Assembly: GCA_017541975.1 (NCBI GenBank)
Contig: JAFXYB010000023.1
Location: forward strand, 1 to 62,482
Reading direction: 5' to 3'
Length of the DNA stretch: 62,482 bases
Origin: a bacterium
GTDB lineage: Bacteria > Bacillota_I > Bacilli_A > Izemoplasmatales > UBA1188
Made by a program: the position numbers and the translations under genes. Below, piece by piece: positions 9,489 to 62,334 of the stretch. The notes under the pieces are model-generated. The model was not told the origin of the DNA, did no database searches, and worked only from the letters and a program-made list of their open reading frames with translations. Position 1 is the first letter of the stretch. Every line of letters starts with the position of its first letter.

Positions 9489-10234
9489 TTAAAAAATGGA
9501 TATTATAGAGTTTGAATCTATTTCTATCTTATAGTTGAAAAGGATGAAAACATAAAGATATTTTTTTAATAATATTTCTATTAATTCCTCCCTAGAAATG
9601 AATATGCTACTATTTTCATTACCATTATTCGTATATTTGTACAATCCATCAACTTGAGAATAGTCTCTGTCAATTATCTTATTAGCCTCATCTCTAGTAA
9701 GCGGCCTTACTTCTGACTTTTCATTATTGCATAATAGATTTATTCTAATAACATTATTTTTCCAAAAACAATAATTTGGTAACCATTGGTTTTTACGTTC
9801 TATTTTTTCAAAAGATTAATACGATTATCATCGATATCAAAATCATAAAATATATAAGCACCTTTATTGCAAAAATCGTAGTTACCATGAAGCACTTCAT
9901 TTATTATCTCAATTGCGTTATTATTATTTATAGGACGCGTTATAGATTTGTTATTTTTAACTTCATCAAAAATTATTTTGTCAAACATTTTTTTATAATT
10001 TTTAACTATTTCATCAATGAATATTTCTGCATTTTCGGTTGATAAAAGTACCTTATAAAAATAATTATTATTATAATCTATCGTTAAATTAGCATCGTAA
10101 AAATCTAATTCTTTTGCGTTTTTATCAAACTCTGATATCAGTTTTTTCCTATATTGTTGCTGACCATTTTTTGTTTTTATATTTTTATCTATATACTGAA
10201 GCGTTTCTTCTTTTTTGAAATGAACAAAATTCAT
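9489..10234 (-). pseudogene. unknown protein downstream of DUF4062, interrupted by a frameshift at an A6 run
   Basis: The first frame runs from ATG 10234 (overlapping the DUF4062 stop as ATGA) for 144 aa and stops at 9800 just after LLKK. A second frame continues without a stop from that point to 9489 (ERKNQWLPNYCFW ... TRDEANKII ... SREELIEILLKKYL). One extra A in the AAAAAA run, or a -1 ribosomal shift there, would join them into about 248 aa. The N-terminal half is Lys/Asn/Asp-rich and helical. I recognise no domain. It is the last gene of the HNH-DGQHR-DUF4062 operon. It may be a broken gene, a sequencing indel, a phase-variable gene or a programmed shift. Confidence 0.55.
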
Positions 10235-11133
10235 TCTGATAACTCACCCATTAATGATAATCCTTTTTCAGTTAAGCCAACTATTTCTGTGAATGCATTT
10301 TTATTTTTTACATTTTCAGACTTAATTAGACCTTTCCCTACAAAAAAGGCTTTAATTTTATTGTGCGTTGCACTATCAGTATAATATCCTTTGCATAAAC
10401 TGTTGACTAAATCTTTAAATTTTGCAATTTCAACCATAGCAGTAAGACCACCAGAAATATGCTTATAGATATCCCTGTAAGTAAAAGTCAATTGTTTCTC
10501 ATCAACAACCTTTCCTGGCGTAAAAGAATACATTATTTCTGTAAAATTAATTGTTATTTCTTTATTTAAATAATCGTAATTTTCGTTGGTACTTACACTA
10601 AAAACATCATTTTCTTTGTCAAGTGAAATAGAGTCGCCTCTTATCCAACCCGGTCTTTCTATATCTCTAATTGCATTAACAATCGACATAGCAACTTTGA
10701 ACTTTAAATCATTGATATCATCCCACAAATTAGCTAACCTATTTTTCATAGCTTTATTTTTAAATATTATCAATTTTTCCTTCTTTTGAGAATCTGTATC
10801 TACATAATCACTGGATAATTTCTCTGTATTACTTCGTGCGAATACCAAAACAGGTATTCCCTTAGAAATTGCATAATCATATTCCATTTCTGTGTAGCTT
10901 ATTCCGGTTTTTTCATTGATTGAGCCATATCTACCACCAATAATCAAAACATAGTAATCACACAAGTCAATTACTTTTTTAATAACCGAAAATTGTTCAT
11001 CATCTGTTGCAACAAATGATTCCATACCCGCTGGAAAACAACCTGCTGTTAAAATTGCATTATATATTTCTCTTCGTTCGTTAATTAAATCAGTAAAAGT
11101 TGAACTGATAAAAACTTGATACTTCTTTTCCAC
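10231..11133 (-). CDS. DUF4062 domain protein (TIR-like fold)
   Basis: The 300-aa protein begins with the DUF4062 signature VFISSTFTDLINERREI, followed by PAGMESFVATDDEQFSVIKK, YYVLIIGGRYGS and GISYTEMEYDYAISKGIPVLVF (residues about 7-100). DUF4062 is related to TIR/SIR2-adjacent Rossmann-type signalling domains and is common in defence loci. The C-terminal 170 residues look like an all-helical/winged region with no known motif. The start is GTG at 11133, with AAAGGAG seven bases upstream. It lies 20 bp after the DGQHR gene and overlaps the next gene by four bases. A role as sensor or NAD-type effector is inference. Confidence 0.8.
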   Translation of the reverse strand: MEKKYQVFISSTFTDLINERREIYNAILTAGCFPAGMESFVATDDEQFSVIKKVIDLCDYYVLIIGGRYGSINEKTGISYTEMEYDYAISKGIPVLVFARSNTEKLSSDYVDTDSQKKEKLIIFKNKAMKNRLANLWDDINDLKFKVAMSIVNAIRDIERPGWIRGDSISLDKENDVFSVSTNENYDYLNKEITINFTEIMYSFTPGKVVDEKQLTFTYRDIYKHISGGLTAMVEIAKFKDLVNSLCKGYYTDSATHNKIKAFFVGKGLIKSENVKNKNAFTEIVGLTEKGLSLMGELSE

Positions 11134-11153
11134 TAGGCACTCCTTTAATACTC

Positions 11154-12236
11154 TTAGAATCCAAGTGGATTAAAATTATCTGTACCTAATGCACGAATTT
11201 TATTTGATGCTATATTAGCAGCATAAATAATCGCGGTTCTATCTCTAAACCACATTTTATGCTCATCATTTGTGAAAAACAATTCTCTTTCAACACCATA
11301 GGTAGATATCATTTGTTTTAAAGTATCTTCAACAAACTCAGTATCAAATGTTCTTCTCAAGTTAATTGCTCTTTCCCATGTTGGTTGTAGAAGCAATAAC
11401 ATAAATCTTAATCCAGCCATTTTAATTGCTGCACCAGCTGTTTTAGCTGTAGAACTCGCGAACTTAAAATCACATACATTTTCCCACGCACTTAAATAAG
11501 TACATATTACTTTCACTTTTTGTTCTTCAGTCAGTAATTTATCTCCAATTGCTAGATCTTGTATATGTGCAGACTTCAAAGCGTCCATTACTTGATCGGC
11601 TTTGAATCCTCTTGATATTTTTTCTGCGCTCATAATAATACGACCTTGCAGTGGATAATTAGAATTTAAGTTTGAAATCAAATTATAGTAGTTTTTTTCG
11701 TTTTCAGAAAGCATATGTAATTTTTCTCTAAACCACATTAGTAAATTTCCACTTACTTTTTCTTGTTTTTCATTACAGCTAACAAATATTTGGCGTTTTT
11801 CGTTTAATGTCGGCTTTATATAAATAGTAAAACCTATTTCATATTGGCTATTATCAGAAATTGTTCTAATATTAGGCAAAAATGAATAGAGTCTGTGTTG
11901 CCCATCCATAACATCAGCTGCATCTTTAAACTCTTCAAATTCTGAATCTGTTTCAGGAAAATCCATATAATATAATCCCATTATATTTGAATAAGGTTTA
12001 ACAACAAGACGATTATCTTTTGTTGCAATTGTTAACGTGTTTGGCAAAATTCCTTTTTCTGAGTCAACATAATGAGCGATGTCTTTTACTCTTTTTTCAC
12101 TTAAAGGTCTTTGAGCATCTTGTACTGCTCCCATTTCAACTTCAGTTGCTGTTTTTACTAGTTTTCTCGGGTCAATTGTTCCAATATAGCTAGTTGTACC
12201 ATATTGGGTATTTTTTAATAATAGTATTCTTTTCAT
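11154..12236 (-). CDS. DGQHR domain protein (DndB/DpdB-like)
   Basis: The 360-aa protein carries the diagnostic DGQHR motif at residues 111-115 (VMDGQHRLYSF), preceded by an N-terminal RPLSEKRVKDIAHYV segment and followed by the FVSCNEKQEKVSGNLL segment typical of the family. DGQHR proteins include DndB and DpdB, which act with DNA phosphorothioation and 7-deazaguanine modification systems, and many uncharacterised homologues. No dnd or dpd modification genes are present here. The ATG follows AAGGAGAAAAATA. It sits 22 bp after the HNH gene. Confidence 0.85.
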   Translation of the reverse strand: MKRILLLKNTQYGTTSYIGTIDPRKLVKTATEVEMGAVQDAQRPLSEKRVKDIAHYVDSEKGILPNTLTIATKDNRLVVKPYSNIMGLYYMDFPETDSEFEEFKDAADVMDGQHRLYSFLPNIRTISDNSQYEIGFTIYIKPTLNEKRQIFVSCNEKQEKVSGNLLMWFREKLHMLSENEKNYYNLISNLNSNYPLQGRIIMSAEKISRGFKADQVMDALKSAHIQDLAIGDKLLTEEQKVKVICTYLSAWENVCDFKFASSTAKTAGAAIKMAGLRFMLLLLQPTWERAINLRRTFDTEFVEDTLKQMISTYGVERELFFTNDEHKMWFRDRTAIIYAANIASNKIRALGTDNFNPLGF

Positions 12237-12258
12237 TATTTTTCTCCTTAATTTTTAT

Positions 12259-12771
12259 TTAAATATTAATCATCTTTTTGAAAATAAAATCAATTTTTGC
12301 ACTTTTACATTCGTTGCATATATTACACAAATCCTGATAATTATCTTTTAATTCATCGCCAACTAGTATAAAAGGAATGATATGATCAACATGAATTTTA
12401 GACATTTCATTTCCAAGTTCTTCTCCGCATAAAGCACACATTCCATTTTGTAATGTGAATAGTCTCTTTTTAACCTCTATTGACGTAAACTTAGGATTTC
12501 TTTTGTTTTGTTTTTTAAAATTTGCTTCAAACCATGTGGACAACAGTTTAGATTCCTCTTCTGATAAACTAATATCAAAACTTCGTTCAATAATTATTTT
12601 TGTGGTTAAAACCTTATCATAAGATTCCCTAAATAAGTTTCTAATACTTTTCTCGAATGATTCATCATTTTTCATTTTAATACATACTTTCTTAAACATT
12701 GAAAGCAATACAGTTTTTTTGTATTCGTTTTTAATATCTGGATTCTCAGCAAGTTCTTCCAACGATAACAT
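12259..12771 (-). CDS. HNH endonuclease domain protein
   Basis: The start is set at 12771 (170 aa), where ATG follows AAGGAGGAAATACTA; a longer frame to 12825 would run through the promoter. The N-terminal ~100 residues are helical and charged. The C-terminal ~60 residues form an HNH module: C-A-L-C-G-E (Zn Cys pair), VDHIIPF (catalytic His) and CNICNECKSAK (second Cys pair and Asn). It should be a metal-dependent DNA nuclease. It is the first gene of a four-gene operon with DGQHR and DUF4062 genes, driven by a consensus promoter with repeated palindromes. Confidence 0.85.
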   Translation of the reverse strand: MLSLEELAENPDIKNEYKKTVLLSMFKKVCIKMKNDESFEKSIRNLFRESYDKVLTTKIIIERSFDISLSEEESKLLSTWFEANFKKQNKRNPKFTSIEVKKRLFTLQNGMCALCGEELGNEMSKIHVDHIIPFILVGDELKDNYQDLCNICNECKSAKIDFIFKKMINI

Positions 12772-12796
12772 TAGTATTTCCTCCTTGATTAATTTT

Positions 12797-12825
12797 ATTT
12801 TACATGATAAATTCATTTTTGTCAA
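12797..12825 (-). promoter_or_regulatory. promoter of the HNH-DGQHR-DUF4062 operon
   Basis: On the minus strand a perfect TTGACA (12825-12820), a 17-bp spacer and TAAAAT (12802-12797) lie about 25 bp upstream of the HNH start. Confidence 0.8.
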
Positions 12826-13413: not shown

Positions 13414-13764
13414 TTAGTCTATATTATAATCACCAAAAGTAATTGGAGTTACATTAATAAGTTTATCAACAACAAAATATGAACAAGACGCTACGCTAAA
13501 TATTTTTTCATCTTTGTACTCTTCCTTAATCAAATTACTAATGTCATCTGTCATTTCATGAAGATAATTATTAACAAATCTATCATCTGCCTTTTCACAA
13601 TAGAATTGCAAATTGATTATTCGTCTCTTTTGAACCTCATTCAATGGTACACCAACATATGCATGTACTTGCACATTTATTCCTTTTATATTTCCTTTAT
13701 AAATAAGATAACTATTATGACTTTGGCTATCTTTTTTAAAGATGTTTTTATAATTATAATTCAT
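13414..13764 (-). CDS. unknown 116-aa protein, last gene of the TIR/caspase operon
   Basis: The protein has no signal peptide or membrane segment and no motif I recognise; it looks like a mixed alpha/beta domain (strands IKGINVQVHAYVGV and FSVASCSYFVVDKLI, a helix NEVQKRRIINLQFYC). The ribosome binding site AAAGGAG is strong. It lies two bases after the TIR gene, so it belongs to the operon. Possible roles are caspase substrate, inhibitor or ligand sensor; nothing in the sequence decides between them. Confidence 0.7.
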   Translation of the reverse strand: MNYNYKNIFKKDSQSHNSYLIYKGNIKGINVQVHAYVGVPLNEVQKRRIINLQFYCEKADDRFVNNYLHEMTDDISNLIKEEYKDEKIFSVASCSYFVVDKLINVTPITFGDYNID

Positions 13765-13766
13765 TT

Positions 13767-14342
13767 CTATCTCCTTTGTTTATGTTCATATGGATTTGTA
13801 CCGTTTATATACGCTCTAAAATTAACATATCTATTGCTATCTAAATCTCTGGCCCATATTTGATAATGATTGGTTGTATCCATACCATAATTCAAATACG
13901 GATAGATATCTAAATACTCTTGTCTTGGAAATTCTTCTTTGTCTTCTGTTAGAAGAATTGTTGCACATCTAAAGTTTTTCTTCCCAGACATATAACCTAA
14001 TTCCCATGGACACCATTTAGACATTGTAGATGATTTGGTATGAACATATACAAGTGACTTACAACGATTCATTACAGAAGATAATCTAACAACTGTATCC
14101 CTATCCACCTTTTTTCTATTTAATTTAGGATCTTTTAAATCAATGTATACTTTATACCCATTTTTTTCAAATAAATTCATAATTTTAATTGCGTAATCTT
14201 TATCAGTATAGCAATACGAAAGAAAAACATCATATTGTTTATCATCTGAGTCAATCCTATTACTTTCATTTAAAGAGAATGAATCACGAATTCTATTTTG
14301 CTGAAATAACTCGTTTAAATATCGTTTAGAAAAGTTTTCCAT
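13767..14342 (-). CDS. TIR domain protein of a caspase-containing Thoeris-like operon
   Basis: The 191-aa protein has a ~35-residue leader followed by a TIR domain: YDVFLSYCYTDKDYA (37-51), GYKVYIDL (62-69), LVYVHTKSSTMSKW and WCPWELGYMSG with the putative catalytic Glu at residue 114. The motif S-x-x-x-S-x-W-C-x-x-E-L matches NAD-cleaving TIR enzymes. No clear ribosome binding site precedes the ATG, which lies 10 bp after the caspase stop, so translation is probably coupled. In type IV Thoeris, as I know it, a TIR enzyme makes a cyclic ADP-ribose-type signal that switches on a caspase-like protease; the neighbourhood fits that model. Confidence 0.85.
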   Translation of the reverse strand: MENFSKRYLNELFQQNRIRDSFSLNESNRIDSDDKQYDVFLSYCYTDKDYAIKIMNLFEKNGYKVYIDLKDPKLNRKKVDRDTVVRLSSVMNRCKSLVYVHTKSSTMSKWCPWELGYMSGKKNFRCATILLTEDKEEFPRQEYLDIYPYLNYGMDTTNHYQIWARDLDSNRYVNFRAYINGTNPYEHKQRR

Positions 14343-14352
14343 AGTTGACTGC

Positions 14353-15351
14353 TTAAATTATTTCATTCATAACCAACCACCAGTAATGTTTCCCAACAGC
14401 AGTCAATTCACAAGTATCAGAATGTAATGCCGCATAAAACATATACTTTTCATTTGTTGGTTTAATCAATGCATTTGCTACAGCTTTCTGTAAAAGGGCA
14501 AACTTTTCTCCATTTATTTTATTAAAATATGGTTCTCTCAAATCATTCTCTCCAATTTCTTTACTTCCAGGATAGTTTGTTGGCTCATATGAAGGGTTCA
14601 ATTGATATTTGCTATTAGAATCCTCAAACATTTTCATCAGTTTTCTCATTTCAGTTTGAGACATTTTTTCTTTGGTATTTCTTAATGTCACAAATGTTTC
14701 AACATGAGATTTAAACAATGGCCTTTGGTCGAAACTACCTAAAGAAGAATCAATATAAGAATAGATAGATCCTGGTGTAACTCTTCCAAAGATATCACTT
14801 GCTCCACCTTCTAAAGCCTCTATCAGCAATTTAGTAAATAATCCATGACCAGAATACTCAATAGCTGATTCAGAGGTATTACAAGCAGTCAAAATGGTCG
14901 TTCCACAACTTAAAGCTGTACTATCACCTATCATAGTAAAATTTCCCATTTTACCCGAATGACAACAATCTAAAATTATAATCTTATTATTGCATTTAGA
15001 CATTTCAATCTTTTCAATAATATCTCTAAATCTTATACCCATATGATTGGACCTATAGTCAAAAGAGCATATTTTTCCATCATTTTTATCATCAAAGCCA
15101 TGACCTGCAAAATACAATATAGATGTATCAGCATCATCACTAAATACTTTTTCTAAGTTTTCCATGATATTATCATAAGTAGCTTTTTCATCTAGCAATT
15201 TAATAATAGAAAAATTACGTGTCCCATCAGAATTAAATTCCAACAAATCCGAAACTTTATTTGCATCATTAAGACAGCAATTTAAATTGTTTCCTGGTTC
15301 ACCATAATTATTGATACCAATTACTAGAGCTTTCTTTTTATTAACAGCCAT
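14353..15351 (-). CDS. caspase-like (C14) protease
   Basis: The start is set at 15351 (332 aa), ATG after AAGGAGGTGTGTTAAA; an upstream in-frame ATG overlaps the preceding gene and lacks a site. The first ~230 residues form a caspase p20/p10-like domain: ALVIGINNYGEPGNNLNCCLNDANKV, the catalytic His84 in YFAGHG and catalytic Cys130 in ILDCCHSG, followed by LTACNTSESA and GLFTKLLIEALEGGA. The C-terminal ~100 residues are a separate region that could bind the activating signal. It is flanked by TIR-fold genes in one operon. It should cleave proteins after activation during infection. Confidence 0.88.
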   Translation of the reverse strand: MAVNKKKALVIGINNYGEPGNNLNCCLNDANKVSDLLEFNSDGTRNFSIIKLLDEKATYDNIMENLEKVFSDDADTSILYFAGHGFDDKNDGKICSFDYRSNHMGIRFRDIIEKIEMSKCNNKIIILDCCHSGKMGNFTMIGDSTALSCGTTILTACNTSESAIEYSGHGLFTKLLIEALEGGASDIFGRVTPGSIYSYIDSSLGSFDQRPLFKSHVETFVTLRNTKEKMSQTEMRKLMKMFEDSNSKYQLNPSYEPTNYPGSKEIGENDLREPYFNKINGEKFALLQKAVANALIKPTNEKYMFYAALHSDTCELTAVGKHYWWLVMNEII

Positions 15352-15352
15352 T

Positions 15353-15763
15353 TTAACACACCTCCTTAATCGCATCAATAATAGAGTTAGTGTTCCATTT
15401 TACTATTTTTCTAGCAGCGCTTTTTACTATAGCCGATGTCTTTTCTGATGCCCATGGTTCAATTGCAATTATAGGTTTTCTTAATTCATTAGCTATTTCT
15501 ATTTCTAATTGAATAGATTCACTATAAGAGGCATATACTCCTGCAAGAATTAGGACAACGCTACAATATTTCATTTTTTCTCTTATTTTATTTCTAAGTT
15601 CGCTTAGATAATATTCCTTATTATATATTGATAATGGATTATCTTTTGGAACAGAATAATCTTTATAAGAAAAATATGGTGCATTTTTTAATAACTCAAC
15701 CAAACAATTGTACGAGTTAGAATAGTTCCATGAATGACTTATAAATAAATTAAATTCTCTCAT
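15353..15763 (-). CDS. ThsB-type TIR-like protein (second TIR-fold gene of operon)
   Basis: The 136-aa single-domain protein matches the MTH538/ThsB TIR-like group: NLFISHSWNYSNSY (5-18), YSVPKDNP, LRNKIREKMKYCSVVLILAGVYASYSESIQLEIEIA and PIIAIEPWASEKTS. In Thoeris systems ThsB proteins sense phage and synthesise the NAD-derived signal. TAGGAGGATTT precedes the ATG. It ends one base before the caspase start. Confidence 0.85.
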   Translation of the reverse strand: MREFNLFISHSWNYSNSYNCLVELLKNAPYFSYKDYSVPKDNPLSIYNKEYYLSELRNKIREKMKYCSVVLILAGVYASYSESIQLEIEIANELRKPIIAIEPWASEKTSAIVKSAARKIVKWNTNSIIDAIKEVC

Positions 15764-15771
15764 AAATCCTC

Positions 15772-16161
15772 CTAACGTATACCTTCTAAAAGTAATTTCA
15801 AGTTATCCCATGTCCATTTATATACTTTATCTTCTTTTTTTGCAGAAGAAGGTTTTTGTACAATGTCATTAGACCTTCCACATAAAAGGAAATAAGGTAT
15901 CCCTTCTTCTTGAGTAATTGTCAATTCTGCAGCAACGCCTTTTGCATTGTTCGTATATTTTCCACACAAAACAATTACACAGTCACATGATTTAATTCTT
16001 TTTCTAGCATTTTCTTTCCAGTTGCTAGCAATTGCCTCTTTAATTGACATATCAACAATTTCAAAAGGCGAATCTGGATTTTTTGCTTGTCCAACTAATG
16101 ATCCTTTAATATCGCTATCGTTGTCATAGTCGAACGAAATAAACACTCTCTTTTTTTTCAT
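15772..16161 (-). CDS. ThsB-type TIR-like protein (first gene of operon)
   Basis: The 129-aa protein begins with RVFISFDYDND and continues with PFEIVDMSIKEA, WKENARKRIKSCDCVIVLCGKYTNNAKGVAAELTIT and IPYFLLCGRS, again the MTH538/TIR-like pattern but clearly distinct from its neighbour. It is the first gene of the five-gene operon, with AGGAGGAAGAAAAA before the ATG. Two ThsB-like genes beside a third TIR gene suggest several phage-recognition specificities feeding one protease. Confidence 0.82.
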   Translation of the reverse strand: MKKKRVFISFDYDNDSDIKGSLVGQAKNPDSPFEIVDMSIKEAIASNWKENARKRIKSCDCVIVLCGKYTNNAKGVAAELTITQEEGIPYFLLCGRSNDIVQKPSSAKKEDKVYKWTWDNLKLLLEGIR

Positions 16162-16212
16162 TTTTTCTTCCTCCTGTATTTAATATAATTTAGAGAGAGT
16201 AGCGAATATCTA

Positions 16213-16241
16213 TTGATAAAAATCCAATTTAAGTGTATAAT
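16213..16241 (+). promoter_or_regulatory. promoter of the candidate small RNA
   Basis: TTGATA (16213-16218), a 17-bp spacer and a perfect TATAAT (16236-16241) point to the right, away from the TIR/caspase operon. Confidence 0.65.
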
Positions 16242-16247
16242 TAGTTA

Positions 16248-16318
16248 CATAAAATTGAGTGGTATCAGTTTTATCTATAGACATTCGTCTACATGACCAG
16301 CAAAAATGCTGGTTTTTT
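16248..16318 (+). ncRNA. candidate ~70-nt small RNA between the HTH gene and the TIR/caspase operon
   Basis: A plus-strand promoter at 16213-16241 is followed by about 70 bp that end in an intrinsic terminator (CCAGCA, loop AAAA, TGCTGG, then six T at 16297-16318). A second hairpin, TAGAC-attc-GTCTA, lies at 16278-16291. There is no open reading frame of note. The unit is divergent from the first TIR-like gene and convergent with the HTH gene. Existence of the RNA and any role in the locus are inferred. Confidence 0.5.
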
Positions 16319-16329
16319 CTTGTTTTTTT

Positions 16330-16932
16330 TTATTTAGATAAGTTTTTAAGTTGATTAATCTCATTAATACGAGATAGGAACAATTTCTCAACAACTGGAT
16401 CTAACTTTAAAAGGTTTTGTTTTTGCATCGTAAATATTTTGAAATAATTAGTATATATTGTTTTTTCCTCCTCACTTAATGTTTTATAATCATCTGTTTT
16501 CGAATTATTAAAGAAATAAAAATAATCGCATAAAGATTTGAAAATGTCATCTTTAGAATAATTACTAATTATTGTATCTATTAAAAACAGAGCGCTTGTA
16601 TCAATGGTATCATTTTTAGTAGCATTGCTCAGTTTTCTAAATGATCGCATAATTAAATCTGTTTTTTCCATCGAAAGTTCGAGTGTGCCATTCAATCTAT
16701 CTCTATTAACTAAATTTTTAAAGCAGTAATAGTCTGCTTCAAAAAGATTGGAATCATAGTTAGTAAATAATCTATCAAATATATAATTGTACTTTTCTTT
16801 TGGTATTTTTTCTCCCCTTTCAAATAATTCTATATATTGCATAGTCGTGTTTCTAGATAGTGAAAAATCAAGAGCAAACTTTGATATTGTAATATTTTCT
16901 TTTTCAAATATTTCTTTGATTGTCATTTCCAT
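16330..16932 (-). CDS. helix-turn-helix protein upstream of the TIR/caspase operon
   Basis: The 200-aa protein has an N-terminal XRE/Cro-like helix-turn-helix (about residues 3-45: IKEIFEKENITISKFALDFSLSRNTT then MQYIELFERGEKIP). The remainder is helical and acidic without a known domain. AGGAG precedes the ATG. It has its own strong promoter and ends 168 bp before the first TIR-like gene on the same strand. I infer a regulator of the locus. A C-terminal ligand or phage-protein sensing part is possible. Confidence 0.7.
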   Translation of the reverse strand: MEMTIKEIFEKENITISKFALDFSLSRNTTMQYIELFERGEKIPKEKYNYIFDRLFTNYDSNLFEADYYCFKNLVNRDRLNGTLELSMEKTDLIMRSFRKLSNATKNDTIDTSALFLIDTIISNYSKDDIFKSLCDYFYFFNNSKTDDYKTLSEEEKTIYTNYFKIFTMQKQNLLKLDPVVEKLFLSRINEINQLKNLSK

Positions 16933-16957: not shown

Positions 16958-16985
16958 ATTATATCATAAATTTGTTTAATGTCAA
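16958..16985 (-). promoter_or_regulatory. promoter of the HTH gene
   Basis: On the minus strand TTGACA (16985-16980), a 16-bp spacer and TATAAT (16963-16958), with an extended-10 TG before the hexamer. Confidence 0.8.
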
Positions 16986-17058: not shown

Positions 17059-17096
17059 TAATTATCTTTTATATTTTAAAATATAAAAGATAATTA
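17059..17096. repeat. perfect 38-bp palindrome
   Basis: Two 19-base arms meet without a loop at 17077/17078 (TTATCTTTTATATTTT against its complement in the right arm). It lies in the 590-bp gene-free stretch between the HTH gene and the next gene, left of the ISL3 remnant. It may be a cruciform or hairpin terminator, or a recombination or binding site. Confidence 0.85.
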
Positions 17097-17174
17097 CTTC
17101 ATTATTTTTGATTTTATTCTTTTAAAATAGACAGCTCTTTTAACCTACAAAATGTTTTGGTTTTTTGTTTTCTA

Positions 17175-17370
17175 AGGTAGGTAGGTAGTTTTACTTAAAA
17201 TTAGTGGTTGATAAATATATACAAAAAAACGAGCCTTCTTTTATAATAATTTTGTCAAATAATCTACGAAAGGAGGCCCATATTTATTATAATCCATATC
17301 CAGATGTTTTAAAAGATGAAAATCTGGAAGTTATAGGTACTAAAGAATTCGATGGAATTCTTTTTGTTTA
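17175..17370 (+). pseudogene. ISL3-family transposase 5' remnant, copy 1
   Basis: From aggtaggtaggtagttttac onward this ~195-bp segment is nearly identical to 20081-20277. It holds the transposase ribosome binding site (AAAGGAGG) and the start of the protein (NPYPDVLKDENLEVIGTKEFDGILFV). It then breaks off, so the rest of the element is deleted. Confidence 0.8.
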
Positions 17371-17402
17371 ATTACTTTTTATATTCATTACTTTAATAAA
17401 AA

Positions 17403-17560: not shown

Positions 17561-18474
17561 TTATTTATTTTTCAAGGCCTCGTTATTAATTTTGTTCTTA
17601 ATTTCTTCAATCTTTTTTTGTCTCAATATTTTTTCTTTTTCAGACTCAAGTTGAATATTTATTATTTCTGAAATGTAACTATAGAACTCTTTTATTTGTT
17701 CATCATTGAGTTCATGAATTCCTTTACTTAATAAACCATATGAATTGCTAAGTGTGTCTTGCACGTCTTCGTCGAATAAATGCCTCACTAATTTTATTTT
17801 TTCATCAAAGTGTACTGCTTTTACTTTTTCTTTTTCGTTTACAGAAGGATCTTGAAGTTTATAAAAAACCATCTTTTCTAGTACTCTTCTTAAGTAAGTA
17901 CAAGCTCCTGCCAAAAGATCTCTTGATTCGCTTTGCTCATATTTCCTGTAATCATCATAAGAATTATTTTTTTTAATATGTTTTTATATTCATTTGAATA
18001 TGTTTTTATTAAATCAGTATTAATTGGTTTTTGACCTATTTTTCTTACTGTAACAATATTATCTTTTAAAGTATACAATAATTCCATCGTTTGATAGTGC
18101 AGCGAATCTTTTGTGCATCTAAATATATAGGATATAATGCATTCATCTTCTTCTGGTGATACAATGTCTCTATCGCAAAAACCTTCTGAATCTATATCAC
18201 AACAACCTAAATAAAACGAGTGATCATAAACAGTATATTCATTTTTCTTTTTAGAATTTCTAAAAATTGAATATGTAACATCAAAAGCGTGTTCTTTATT
18301 ACAGTCAATACATTTTATATCAATTTTTTTGCAACTAAAAAGCGATTGTAATTGATTCTTTGCAAAATCTGATAATGGAACCTCTTCCTCATCTATTTTA
18401 GATAAAAATTGAAATTCAAATGAGCCATAAATAGGTATGCCCTTAATAATGTCTTCTAATTTATATATATCCAT
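17561..18474 (-). pseudogene. DUF4145-like protein of unknown function, split by a frameshift at an A8 run
   Basis: Frame 1 starts at ATG 18474 after GGAAGGAG and stops at 17890. Frame 2 is open downstream to 17561. At the A8 run near 17970 a -1 shift (or one extra A) joins them: YKNILKK then NNSYDDYRKYEQSESRDLLAGACTYLRRVLEKM. The heptamer A-AAA-AAA in frame is a classical -1 slippery sequence. The N-terminal half has CIDCNKEH and LGCCDID, possibly a zinc site. The C-terminal half (RDLLAGACTYLRRVLEKM ... LLSKGIHELND) resembles DUF4145-type helical proteins. The joined product would be about 304 aa. Confidence 0.6.
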
Positions 18475-18666
18475 AATTTCTCCTTCCATATCTTCCAATT
18501 TTGTTAATTATGTAATTATTTTGCAATGCTTTTATTCTGTTGTTATAACACTTTAAATCTATCATTCGTTGTGTGCTGTCCCATTGATATTTTTTTCAGT
18601 ATTAAATCTAAGAACGAATCTACTCTCAAATAGTAAATACAGTCAATTATTTCTATAATCAAATAA

Positions 18667-19947
18667 CTATATAATGGCTCTACTACTCATAAAATCCTTA
18701 AATAATGCTATACATGCTGCGGCTGATGGCATCATTGTATATCTTGTATTTGTGCTTTTATCTAATATAGAATTATATGTAATACTAATATTATTCATTA
18801 AATCGTCAATACTTAAGAATAATGCTTTTTCACCATCTTTTAATACTTTCTTAAGTTTCTTATCTTCTATTTTTGAATTATTAGCTAATGATTTTTCTAG
18901 TTGTGCTTTTGTTTGTTTTATCTTTGTATAGAATAAGAATTGTGGTTTACCTACTTCTACTAAGTCTCTATAGAAACATATTATTTGTTTTTCTAATTGT
19001 CTTGGATTAATACCAAGGTCATTTAATCCAAGGTTAATAGATTCTAGGTTTAATTCATCATATATTTCATTTATTATTGATTCTCCTAAAGGATACTCTT
19101 TTAATGTATGATTATCACTATTATCAATAGCATATTTTGTTTTAAGTGATGCTGCTACACTATTACCTAGTGTTTTCTTTCCTATACTTAAATCTTTACT
19201 TCTTATTATTAGTGGTATATATCCATCACTTGTGATTATGAAGCCATTAAATCCTAGATGATTAGACATCTTAGAATCTTTTAGTTCTCTAACATATGGA
19301 CCTGGTTCATACATTTCTCTAATGGTTTCACCATTATCTAATATATAATCAGGTGCTCTATTAGTTTTTAATGAACTATAATAGTATGTTCTAGAAGTAT
19401 AGAGATTAATTATGTTATTATCTTCTTTAACATCATCTAATCTTACATTAATCGCATTATATGTTACATTTCCTTTATATGCGCTTAATATATCTTTGCT
19501 ATTTTTATTAATCTCTTGTGGTAGTTCATAAAATTTATTATAGTCATCAATATACTTGAATTCTTTATTATATGCATCAGCAATTACTATTATTGGAAAT
19601 AATACAGATTCATTTCCATTCTTATATTCATATAGATTAGACAATGAATACTTCTTAACGATTCCAATATTCTCATAATTAATCCTAACATCTTCTGAAT
19701 GTTTCTTGGTGTACCACCAAACAAAAAGAGATGCTAGCGCACCAGAAAGAAGGGTTATTAAAATAGCAGATATTACACCAATATCAACTATATCATTAGC
19801 AAGATCCGAATCAATAACATTTGTTTTCCTTAATATTAGTAAAACTAAATATACTACAATGATAATCGAAACATGCATTATAGTATGGAATAATGGACTT
19901 TTAATTGTTTTAAATCTTCTTCTTGCCTTTTCTTTTGATTTATTCAT
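18667..19947 (-). CDS. two-transmembrane protein with a Nudix-like C-terminal region
   Basis: The 426-aa protein has two membrane helices (about residues 25-42 and 55-78) and a large cytoplasmic part. Within it, GFIITSDGYIPLIIRS, LGNSVAASLKTKYA and ESIINEIYDELNLE resemble the strand-loop-helix and R/E-x-x-EE pattern of Nudix domains, although the Nudix box is degenerate. A C-terminal helical tail follows. Membrane-anchored nucleotide-binding domains of this type occur as effectors in nucleotide-signal defence. The ribosome binding site is weak (AGGTAATTAT). It lies between the two ISL3-ugd scars. Function unknown. Confidence 0.55.
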   Translation of the reverse strand: MNKSKEKARRRFKTIKSPLFHTIMHVSIIIVVYLVLLILRKTNVIDSDLANDIVDIGVISAILITLLSGALASLFVWWYTKKHSEDVRINYENIGIVKKYSLSNLYEYKNGNESVLFPIIVIADAYNKEFKYIDDYNKFYELPQEINKNSKDILSAYKGNVTYNAINVRLDDVKEDNNIINLYTSRTYYYSSLKTNRAPDYILDNGETIREMYEPGPYVRELKDSKMSNHLGFNGFIITSDGYIPLIIRSKDLSIGKKTLGNSVAASLKTKYAIDNSDNHTLKEYPLGESIINEIYDELNLESINLGLNDLGINPRQLEKQIICFYRDLVEVGKPQFLFYTKIKQTKAQLEKSLANNSKIEDKKLKKVLKDGEKALFLSIDDLMNNISITYNSILDKSTNTRYTMMPSAAACIALFKDFMSSRAII

Positions 19948-20080: not shown

Positions 20081-20352
20081 AGGTAGGTAGGTAGTTTTAC
20101 TTAAAATTAGTGGTTGATAAATATATACAAAAAAATGAGCCTTCTTTTATAATAATATTGTCAAATAATCTACGAAAGGAGGCCCATATTTATTATAATC
20201 CATATCCAGATGTTTTAAAAGATGAAAATCTGGAAGTTATAGATACTAAAGAACTAAACGGAATTCTTTTTGTTTCACTACTTCTTCATCCAAAAAATTC
20301 GTATATTTGTCCATTATGTGGTTCTAATTATATTATTAAAACGGTATTATAA
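20081..20352 (+). pseudogene. ISL3-family transposase 5' remnant, copy 2
   Basis: This copy repeats 17175-17370 and extends further. After the AAAGGAGG site the frame reads PYPDVLKDENLEVIDTKELNG, then ILFVSLLLHPKNSYICPLCGSNYI with the N-terminal CPxC zinc-finger of ISL3 transposases, and stops at 20352. The initiation codon after the ribosome binding site appears lost. The body of the transposase is missing. Confidence 0.8.
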
Positions 20353-53110: not shown

Positions 53111-53326
53111 TTATGCCGCAACAAATATTTTCATAGCTGTCGATTTGTTGATCGCAAGTCTAACGTTCTTGATTTTTATAATAACGTTTCCTTCTGATAC
53201 TTGCATGACAGTTACGAGTGCGTTCACGAGAACGCCTAAGTTTTCTAGATGTCTTTTTGTCTTTTCATCTACTAAGATTTTTATTATTTTTAATTCTACG
53301 TTTAGTGGTGCATTTAAAAGTGGCAT
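53111..53326 (-). CDS. feoA: FeoA family protein (first)
   Basis: The start is set at 53326 (71 aa), ATG after AAAGGAGAGAAT. The SH3-like fold is visible in KRHLENLGVLVNALVTVMQVSEGNVIIKIKNVRLAINKSTAMKI. It is more diverged than the second FeoA and heads the operon. Confidence 0.88.
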   Translation of the reverse strand: MPLLNAPLNVELKIIKILVDEKTKRHLENLGVLVNALVTVMQVSEGNVIIKIKNVRLAINKSTAMKIFVAA

Positions 53327-53338
53327 ATTCTCTCCTTT

Positions 53339-53391
53339 AGTTAGCATTTGCTAACTCATAGTTTGAAATTATTAGTTAGCATCTGCTAACT
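53339..53391. promoter_or_regulatory. two perfect DtxR-type operators of the feo operon
   Basis: AGTTAGCATTTGCTAACT (53339-53356) and AGTTAGCATCTGCTAACT (53374-53391) each have perfect 8-bp arms with a two-base centre, 35 bp apart. One overlaps the expected transcription start and the other sits just before the ribosome binding site. The adjacent DtxR-family gene is the likely regulator. Confidence 0.85.
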
Positions 53392-53397
53392 GTGAAT

Positions 53398-53426
53398 ATT
53401 ATATTTCAATATAATTCTTATGTCAA
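53398..53426 (-). promoter_or_regulatory. consensus promoter of the feo operon
   Basis: On the minus strand a perfect TTGACA (53426-53421), a 17-bp spacer and a perfect TATAAT (53403-53398). Confidence 0.92.
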
Positions 53427-53488
53427 GTAAAAAAATAAAACTATGTTTAATTAATATAGCTATGTTATAATAAGCGTGAGGTGAAACT

Positions 53489-53860
53489 ATGGTTATACAT
53501 GAATCAGCTGAAGATTATTTAGAGAATATACTTATACTTACTAATAAAAATGGTAAAGTTAAGAGTATTGATATAGCTAATTATATGAATTATTCTAAAC
53601 CTAGTATATCTAGGGCTATGAAGAATTTAAAAAATGATGGTTATATTATTGTCGATGAGAATGGTTATATAACTTTAACAGATAAAGGAAAGAAAATTGC
53701 CATAAATATATATGAGAGGCATGTAACACTTTCTAATTGGTTTAAATCAATAGGTGTTAGTGAAGAAAATGCCTTAAATGATGCCTGTAGGATTGAACAT
53801 TATTTAAGCCATGAAACATATAACGCTATCAAGAAATATATCGATAATCTAGATAAATAA
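53489..53860 (+). CDS. DtxR/MntR family metal-dependent repressor
   Basis: The 123-aa protein has an N-terminal winged helix (SAEDYLENILILTNKNGKVKSIDIANYMNYSKPSISRAMKNLKNDGYI) and a dimerisation part with CRIEHYLSHET, matching the C-x-x-E-H metal site of DtxR. It lacks a C-terminal SH3 domain, as in MntR. It is divergent from feo and should repress it when iron (or manganese) is plentiful. GAGGTGAAACT precedes the ATG; TATAAT at about 53465 may be its -10. Confidence 0.88.
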   Translation: MVIHESAEDYLENILILTNKNGKVKSIDIANYMNYSKPSISRAMKNLKNDGYIIVDENGYITLTDKGKKIAINIYERHVTLSNWFKSIGVSEENALNDACRIEHYLSHETYNAIKKYIDNLDK

Positions 53861-53861
53861 T

Positions 53862-53894
53862 AAACGAAGGAGCACATCAAGCGCTCCTTCGTTT
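53862..53894. terminator. bidirectional terminator between convergent genes
   Basis: AAACGAAGGAGC and GCTCCTTCGTTT are perfect 12-bp arms, flanked by T-rich sequence on the plus side. Confidence 0.9.
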
Positions 53895-53897
53895 ATT

Positions 53898-55772
53898 TTA
53901 TTTAGTTTCTTCTTTTATTTTTTCAAGTACTGTCTTCTTAAGTCCTACTACATCGATTTTACCATTAGCAAGGAATGGAAGAGATTCAAATGCATATATA
54001 TAATCAGGAAGTTTAGTTTTCGAAAGTTTTCCTTTTAAGTGTTCTAACATTTCTTCCTTATTAAATGTATATCCATTCTTTAATGTAATTACAACAGCGA
54101 TTTCTTCGCCCCAGAAATCACTTGGTACACCGAATACTTGAACATTAGAAACGCATTCTTCTTCTGTGACTTTAGCTGCGATTTCAACTGGAAGGATGTT
54201 TTCACCACCTTTGATGATGATTTCTTTCTTTCTACCAGCATAGTGGAGATAACCATTATCATCCATATATCCAAGATCTCCAGTATGGAACCAACCATTT
54301 GTATCAAAATCTTGTTTCTCGATTGGGGTTTTATAATAACCACTCATAAGAGAATCACCTTGAACGATGATTTCACCTGTTTCAAGGTTTTTTGCATCTT
54401 CTAAAGTAACTGGATTTTGAATTTTAACCTTTACAAATGAACTTGGCTTACCAATTGTAGATGTGATTGTTTCTAATGAATCATTATTTCTTGTGTATGA
54501 TACAGGTGCCATTTCAGATAGTCCATATACATTATAGAACTGAGTGTTAGGGAATTTGCTTTGAAGAAGTAACATTTGTTTAGCGGAAATTGGTGCACCA
54601 CCTACTACACTTGTCTTGATAGATGCAACTTTATCGGTTGAGAAATTTGGATTATTAGTAAGAGCTATTAGAAGGGTTGGTACTGAGTTCATTACAGTAC
54701 ATTTTCTTATAGATAAAATATCTAGGATATCATTTGTCCTTACAGTAGTTGGGAAAACTACTTTTGTATCAAACATCGCTGATGCGAAGAATGTTGCCGC
54801 AAGACCAAAGATATGGAAGAGTGGGAGAAGAATACATGAACTATCCTCTTCAGTTGTACCAAGTTCCTTTCCGCATTTTGATGCGGTAAGGATATTGAAT
54901 GATGAGAGAAGGACGCCTTTAGGTGTTCCTGTAGAACCCGATGTGTAAATCATTACACATGGATCATCATTTTCAACATTGATAAGTGACAACATGTTTT
55001 CACTAACCACACTTATTTCTCTATCCTTTATTGGGCTTATGATGTCATAAGCATATTTTATAGGAGAATTATCTTCGTTTAAGATTTCTTTGAAGAATGC
55101 ATCTTTATCGGAAAGCATTTGTGGGATTAAACCGAAACAAAAATGAGTGATATCACCGATTTTTGCAAGAGCTAAGATTTCACTTGCGGTAAGTGTTGGA
55201 TTTACTAAAATTGCGATAGCGCCTAGTTTTTGGATGGCAAAGAATGTCATAATCCAGTTAACTGAGTTTAGTGAGCATATTGCAACGTGTGTTCCTTTTT
55301 TAACACCGAGTTTAATTAAATCTTCAGCAACTATATTTGAATATTTATCAACATCAAGGTAAGTGTATTCTCTCATTGCATCGGATAATATTACTTTATC
55401 TCTTGATACTTTAACTTTATATTCCAAGAATTTTTTGAAAGAGAACCTTGAAAAATCTACTGTTTCTTCTTGTTTAACTATGATATCAAGGACATTATCA
55501 AAACCAGTTAATTCTAAAATATTTTTAACGTCTTCGTTGACATTTATAGCTTCTAATGTACCATTTGATATTTTCTTTTTGATGATTAAAAGTTCTCTTA
55601 ATCCGGCAGATGAAATATAATCTAATTTTTTGAAATCAAATACTACTTTATTATAGGAATTAAAATCTACATCAGATAAATCTTCTCTTAATTGTTGAGA
55701 GGTGATTGAATCGATTCTACCTTCAACCTTGATTGTGAGTGTGATCTTATCCTTTATTTTTTCTACTATCAT
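53898..55772 (-). CDS. STAS domain-AMP-dependent acyl-CoA ligase fusion
   Basis: Residues 1-~100 form a STAS/anti-sigma-antagonist domain (KVEGRIDSITSQQL, VVFDFKKLDYISSAGLRELLII, with candidate phospho-Ser54/55). Residues ~120-624 form an ANL ligase: IYTSGSTGTPKGVLLSS, NVYGLSEMAP, WFHTGDLGYMDDNGYLHYAGRKKEII and the C-terminal Lys in LANGKIDVVGLKK. It should activate a fatty or other acid, perhaps under partner control through STAS. The gene follows an acyltransferase 3 gene by two bases. Confidence 0.85.
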   Translation of the reverse strand: MIVEKIKDKITLTIKVEGRIDSITSQQLREDLSDVDFNSYNKVVFDFKKLDYISSAGLRELLIIKKKISNGTLEAINVNEDVKNILELTGFDNVLDIIVKQEETVDFSRFSFKKFLEYKVKVSRDKVILSDAMREYTYLDVDKYSNIVAEDLIKLGVKKGTHVAICSLNSVNWIMTFFAIQKLGAIAILVNPTLTASEILALAKIGDITHFCFGLIPQMLSDKDAFFKEILNEDNSPIKYAYDIISPIKDREISVVSENMLSLINVENDDPCVMIYTSGSTGTPKGVLLSSFNILTASKCGKELGTTEEDSSCILLPLFHIFGLAATFFASAMFDTKVVFPTTVRTNDILDILSIRKCTVMNSVPTLLIALTNNPNFSTDKVASIKTSVVGGAPISAKQMLLLQSKFPNTQFYNVYGLSEMAPVSYTRNNDSLETITSTIGKPSSFVKVKIQNPVTLEDAKNLETGEIIVQGDSLMSGYYKTPIEKQDFDTNGWFHTGDLGYMDDNGYLHYAGRKKEIIIKGGENILPVEIAAKVTEEECVSNVQVFGVPSDFWGEEIAVVITLKNGYTFNKEEMLEHLKGKLSKTKLPDYIYAFESLPFLANGKIDVVGLKKTVLEKIKEETK

Positions 55773-62135: not shown

Positions 62136-62158
62136 TAGTTTTTTTAAAAAAATTTTGC

Positions 62159-62334
62159 TTGTTATCTATGATAACAAAAAAGAATCTATAGCGATTATAC
62201 TATGGATTCTTTTTAAATGGGTTTCTCGTAAATATTATTGCTTTCTCGTAAAATACATATATAAATGAAAGAATAGTCAAGAATTATCGGATTATTAATA
62301 CAAACAAAAAGATTGATTAAAGTATCAATCTTTT
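62159..62334. terminator. three hairpins separating the padR operon from the insertion sequence
   Basis: The hairpins are GTTATC-tat-GATAAC (62161-62175), AAAAAGAATC...GATTCTTTTT (62177-62214, extended stem with a G-T pair) and AAAAGATTGAT...ATCAATCTTTT (62309-62334). The last two have T-runs and should stop transcription in both directions. No gene is seen between 62082 and 62388. Confidence 0.75.

Follow-up and report, generated by a model that had tools for sequence, protein, structure and literature searches.

A probable small RNA gene lies at 16248-16318 on the plus strand of the 62,482-nt stretch of bacterial DNA analysed here (the window), in the spacer between a helix-turn-helix (HTH) protein gene and the first gene of a TIR-caspase operon, and the sequence there is read most economically as a discrete plus-strand transcription unit. 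We propose that the product is a structured, untranslated cis-antisense RNA of about 70 nt, specific to this locus, which would damp transcriptional read-through into the suicidal TIR-caspase operon; we put the probability of this reading at about 0.42. The evidence comprises the elements of the unit itself, the order of the surrounding genes, searches for relatives, and an estimate of how far chance or a neighbouring inverted repeat could account for the same observations.

Elements of the predicted small RNA gene

The unit consists of the following predicted features:

16213..16241, plus strand: small-RNA promoter TTGATA-17-TATAAT, matching the consensus at 11 of 12 positions
16248..16318, plus strand: predicted RNA of about 70 nt, identified by fold z-score and the lack of any open reading frame (ORF) with a Shine-Dalgarno site
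16249-16274, plus strand: hairpin 1, 10 bp (predicted fold)
16278-16291, plus strand: hairpin 2, 5 bp (predicted fold)
16295..16314, plus strand: intrinsic terminator GACCAGCA-AAAA-TGCTGGTT, then TTTTC, with an 8-bp stem

The promoter is exactly as the initial annotation gave it, with the -35 box TTGATA at 16213-16218 and the -10 box TATAAT at 16236-16241 separated by a 17-nt spacer, and it ranks second among the 24 promoter-like sites in the 3.5 kb that were scanned. The predicted start at about 16248, some 7 nt past the -10 box, falls directly at the base of hairpin 1. Two hairpins and a terminator had also been claimed, and the 10-bp, 5-bp and 8-bp stems bear this out: the stretch 16247-16320 has a predicted folding energy of -22.7 kcal/mol (z -5.7), which was matched by none of 200 shuffled sequences, and when the terminator is removed (16247-16294) a z-score of -3.25 is retained, so that structure extends beyond the terminator. 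On the minus strand the fold of 16247-16294 is slightly weaker (z -2.6 vs. -3.25 on the plus strand), because a G-U pair of hairpin 1 turns into A-C there. The 3.5 kb contain two terminators, against 0.7 expected, and one of these is that at 16295-16314; its T tract follows the hairpin in the plus direction only, with none following on the minus strand, and it fits no other plus-strand gene. The six T residues that had been counted are present (TTTTTTC), two of them as paired bases of the stem. No plus-strand ORF with a Shine-Dalgarno site was found inside the predicted RNA; the longest plus-strand ORF inside the unit has 31 codons and a GTG start and lacks such a site, in agreement with the earlier description of about 70 bp without coding potential. 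A short peptide product was ruled out, there being no ORF with a ribosome-binding site. Judged by sequence only, the unit thus has its own promoter and an intrinsic terminator on one strand and no ORF, as is asked of an intergenic small RNA gene.

Gene context, read-through and relatives

The genes on either side of the unit are all on the opposite strand:

16958..16985, minus strand: HTH gene promoter TTGACA-16-TATAAT with TG before the -10 box, 12/12
16330..16932, minus strand: HTH protein gene (200 aa), probable first gene of a read-through transcript
15772..16161, minus strand: TIR-A, ThsB-like TIR (PF08937, E 2.9e-9)
15353..15763, minus strand: TIR-B, ThsB-like TIR (PF08937, E 5.3e-12)
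14353..15378, minus strand: caspase-like protease (PF00656, E 1.3e-16)
13767..14342, minus strand: TIR-C, TIR_2 / ThsB-like (PF13676, E 5e-10; PADLOC ThsB, E 7e-42)

The HTH gene shares its strand with TIR-A, TIR-B, the caspase gene and TIR-C, and the small-RNA unit runs tail-to-tail into it. The unit had been called divergent from the defence genes, which is correct for TIR-A but incomplete, since it is also tail-to-tail with a gene on the defence strand; the placement of the HTH gene on that strand with its 12/12 promoter, and the inverted repeat described below, had both been missed. In the 168-bp HTH/TIR-A spacer no minus-strand promoter of at least 9/12 is present (the best is 8/12), and no minus-strand terminator was found. 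These two absences and the 12/12 HTH promoter argue for HTH-to-TIR read-through, which would make the RNA cis-antisense. Most expression of the defence genes probably stems from transcription that starts at the HTH promoter and reads through, and TIR-A may also have a weak promoter of its own (TATATT at 16187-16182, with a poor -35 box). The predicted RNA is complementary by position, over its full length, to the HTH-TIR intercistronic stretch of this putative message. Its 5' end at about 16248 lies about 75 nt from the Shine-Dalgarno site of TIR-A, which it does not cover, so a direct block of TIR-A translation is unlikely. In trans, TIR-C ranked second among 55 genes for pairing with ribosome-binding sites (z -2.4), and across the entire operon the RNA paired no better than shuffled RNAs did. 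Since the whole RNA is complementary to the HTH-TIR joint and no trans target in the operon beats chance, a cis role is preferred.

The operon (13414-16161) contains three TIR genes, two of PF08937 and one of PF13676, and one caspase gene; among related operons there are two TIR genes in L035 and one in each of L028 and L039. In Salmonella houtenae, an unannotated frame that lies upstream of a caspase gene shares 53% identity with TIR-B, and relatives of the caspase at 43-47% identity occur in other Bacilli MAGs. In Type IV Thoeris the TIR protein makes N7-cADPR, which activates the protease, and the gene content of the neighbouring operon, TIR and caspase-like protease together, suggests this type. 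As far as Type IV Thoeris (TIR plus caspase-like protease; Rousset et al. 2025) is set out in PMC12847820 and PMC13373217, the window's operon resembles it in that both kinds of gene share an operon behind a regulator gene, and differs in having three TIR genes. Adjoining the operon, 10231-12825 carries a DUF4062 gene, a DndB/DpdB-like gene and an HNH endonuclease gene and forms a defence island; DUF4062 is a TIR-like NADase family named Swarozyc (PMC13174449). On the other side, the start of a transposase-like frame is repeated at 17204-17371 and 20110-20352, flanking 17561-19947, and these repeats look like partial insertion-sequence copies.

The HTH protein belongs to no family in Pfam or NCBIfam. 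Its structural model is predicted to be all-helical with an N-terminal HTH, and a PDB fold search with the model gave no match below E 0.9. No HTH relative close enough for DNA comparison was found in 84,980 species, viral contigs and plasmids. The distant ones (23-31% protein identity) are followed by a TIR gene (L020), a trypsin-like protease gene (L040) and, in Izemoplasma, an unassigned gene (L004), and shorter HTH proteins that form a less closely related group (L026, L057) precede AAA ATPase genes; this suggests that the family, which has no Pfam entry, may comprise regulators or partners of defence genes. HTH and TIR-caspase relatives occur in Bacilli, Butyrivibrio, Salmonella and Thiolapillus, with spacers that are absent, short or unrelated. 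Downstream of the HTH relatives the spacers measure 74 bp (L020), 43 bp (L040), 157 bp (L004) and 1 bp (L026), and none contains an antisense promoter-terminator unit. The 157-bp Izemoplasma spacer (L004:2200-2380) is highly structured, contains nested stems and an AAGGAGG motif, and is unrelated in sequence to the spacer of the window. Upstream of the TIR-caspase operons L028, L034, L035 and L039 lie different genes, and the RNA is missing there too. When 90 genomes of the order were scanned with a covariance model of the candidate, built from one sequence of one genome, only the candidate itself and ordinary terminators were recovered; the next-best matches (L045-L049), found at the ends of genes with ordinary products (lactate dehydrogenase-like, GntR-like, dnaK), were dismissed as terminators. 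No Rfam family was reached at the gathering score, the best by E-value, the photosynthesis-regulating RNA PsrR1, scoring 29.6 bits against the 42 needed and being taken as chance. A search for tRNA and tmRNA gave none, and the genome holds no second copy of the stretch, on which ground a mobile-element end or MITE was rejected.

Conserved structure or sequence was thus not found in the relatives, all of them distant. The initial annotation had made its proposal depend on conservation of hairpins and promoter in related loci, and at the distance of these relatives the outcome goes against it: none of the HTH-family or TIR-caspase loci found has the spacer, the hairpins or the promoter, and a conserved component is not supported. 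At 23-31% (HTH) and 43-47% (caspase) identity, this absence shows only that the RNA is not an obligatory part. An antisense RNA of mazEF, the stimulatory aMEF, acts despite a poorly conserved promoter (PMC8749433), so missing conservation does not preclude function. The view of the RNA as a built-in part of the TIR-caspase system, acting as sensor, guide or scaffold, draws on its position beside the operon as the sole point in favour; the RNA is missing from all four TIR-caspase operons and at the HTH relatives, it has no Rfam relation, and we regard such a role as very improbable. Between the two functions first suggested for the RNA, repression is plausible, the RNA being fully antisense to the HTH-TIR stretch, and a conserved sensor or guide is not supported.

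Chance and the inverted repeat as alternatives

Under strict thresholds, which were chosen with the candidate already known (a promoter of at least 11/12 and, no more than 140 nt from it, a terminator stem of at least 7 bp with at least 4 G-C pairs), the candidate is the sole promoter-terminator unit across the two strands of the 62 kb, and no such unit appeared in 20 single-strand shuffles; with relaxed thresholds, 0.12-0.32 units per strand are expected by chance. Promoter-like sites of at least 9/12 are at shuffle level (24 vs. 23.4 expected in 3.5 kb), so only the 11/12 quality of the promoter counts. Nor is the fold strength unique, as 20 of 3374 sliding windows reach z <= -5.69 and about 20-30 match the candidate in folding; in this sliding-window scan the candidate itself was re-scored at z -4.8. 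Very strong folds (z about -8 to -11) are predicted at 53318-53909 and 62150-62234, and an AT-rich palindrome of about 34 bp at 17065-17098, upstream of the HTH promoter, is also among the strongest in the window. Support for the unit is therefore good, not overwhelming: it is unusual, yet one per several windows could arise without selection. The relaxed-threshold counts, the shuffle-level number of weaker sites, the other windows of equal fold strength and the lack of conservation at the relatives' distances all agree with a good promoter and terminator arising by accident in AT-rich DNA, with spurious antisense transcription of no function. We consider this accident unlikely, yet a serious contender; it sits poorly with the empty strict shuffles, with five compatible elements joined by short linkers, and with an intergenic site in a region that is otherwise one-directional.

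An inverted repeat crosses the spacer, and its two arms overlap the predicted unit:

16203..16221, plus strand: arm 1, CGAATATCTATTGATAAAA, over the small-RNA -35 box
16269..16287, minus strand: arm 2, CGAATGTCTATAGATAAAA, inside the small RNA (second hairpin)

The 19-nt arms are 89% complementary, with a GTAG/CTAC extension; at 3 mismatches the motif would otherwise be expected 0.42 times per window, and there is no exact third copy within the window. As a minus-strand RNA, 16196-16292 has a predicted energy of -25.8 kcal/mol (z -6.4, vs. -4.7 on the plus strand), and on this mRNA strand the inverted repeat folds better than the candidate RNA itself. Each arm carries a short dyad of the type bound by HTH dimers; the HTH promoter showed none resembling it. 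The repeat may be the true site of control, and according to these predicted folds a DNA operator or a hairpin of the minus-strand mRNA accounts for it better than a role within the small RNA does. The functional object could then be the other strand or the DNA, with 16203-16287 as the control site and the plus-strand promoter and terminator incidental, either as an HTH operator with the dyads TATC-N4-GATA and TATC-N4-GACA about 66 bp apart, or as an mRNA leader hairpin or RNase III site between the HTH gene and TIR-A. The complementarity of the arms, the rarity of the motif and the stronger minus-strand fold speak for such a site; a near-consensus promoter, hairpin 1 and a plus-directed terminator, in order within 105 bp, would be left unexplained, and hairpin 1 folds better on the plus strand. 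We hold this alternative to be doubtful.

Proposed antisense control and comparison with known systems

In the antisense control that we propose, the HTH promoter would drive the HTH gene and, by read-through, the TIR and caspase genes, and the strong plus-strand promoter would make a structured RNA of about 70 nt antisense to the HTH/TIR spacer. Steady antisense transcription would make polymerases collide, and pairing of the antisense RNA with the message would expose the spacer to cleavage by RNase III. The message would thereby be uncoupled, HTH protein being produced while the cell-killing TIR-caspase genes are kept low. The inverted repeat over the -35 box is a candidate operator at which the HTH protein or another regulator might bind, shutting the antisense promoter and letting the operon rise. 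In its fullest form, an HTH-gated antisense promoter would be a two-state switch that holds the TIR-caspase death operon silent and frees it on infection, and would be the first case of a Thoeris-type system controlled by RNA; this extension is speculative and we think it improbable.

Antisense control has a precedent in Rna0, an 88-nt antisense RNA in the EcoRI operon, where a weaker Rna0 promoter gives more phage restriction (PMC3874152). We count this case in favour of the antisense control reading: in each case, here by prediction, a strong reverse promoter within a defence operon of two parts drives a short RNA that counters transcription of the downstream part. Rna0, however, is a measured RNA encoded inside the endonuclease gene, whereas the candidate is in a spacer of a TIR-caspase operon and is predicted only. 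SymR, of the symE type I toxin-antitoxin system (PMC3874152), is likewise shorter than about 80 nt and cis-antisense to the mRNA leader of a toxic gene, and a regulator site lies near the promoter, that of LexA for symE (PMC3874152) and, as a candidate, the repeat over the -35 box here. SymR covers the ribosome-binding site, a feature not common to all such antisense RNAs, whereas the candidate RNA ends more than 70 nt from that of TIR-A; SymR-type targets are small toxins, unlike the TIR and caspase genes. CapK and CapS are, by their own description, different proteins from the HTH protein (PMC13373217). In a limited literature search, no published RNA component of Thoeris, or RNA control over it, was found.

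The control of suicidal TIR-caspase immunity is poorly known, and the known control is exerted by proteins, e.g., CapK/CapS. If shown, a short antisense RNA at this locus would make a single -10 box a handle on RNA control of defence and would extend the EcoRI case.
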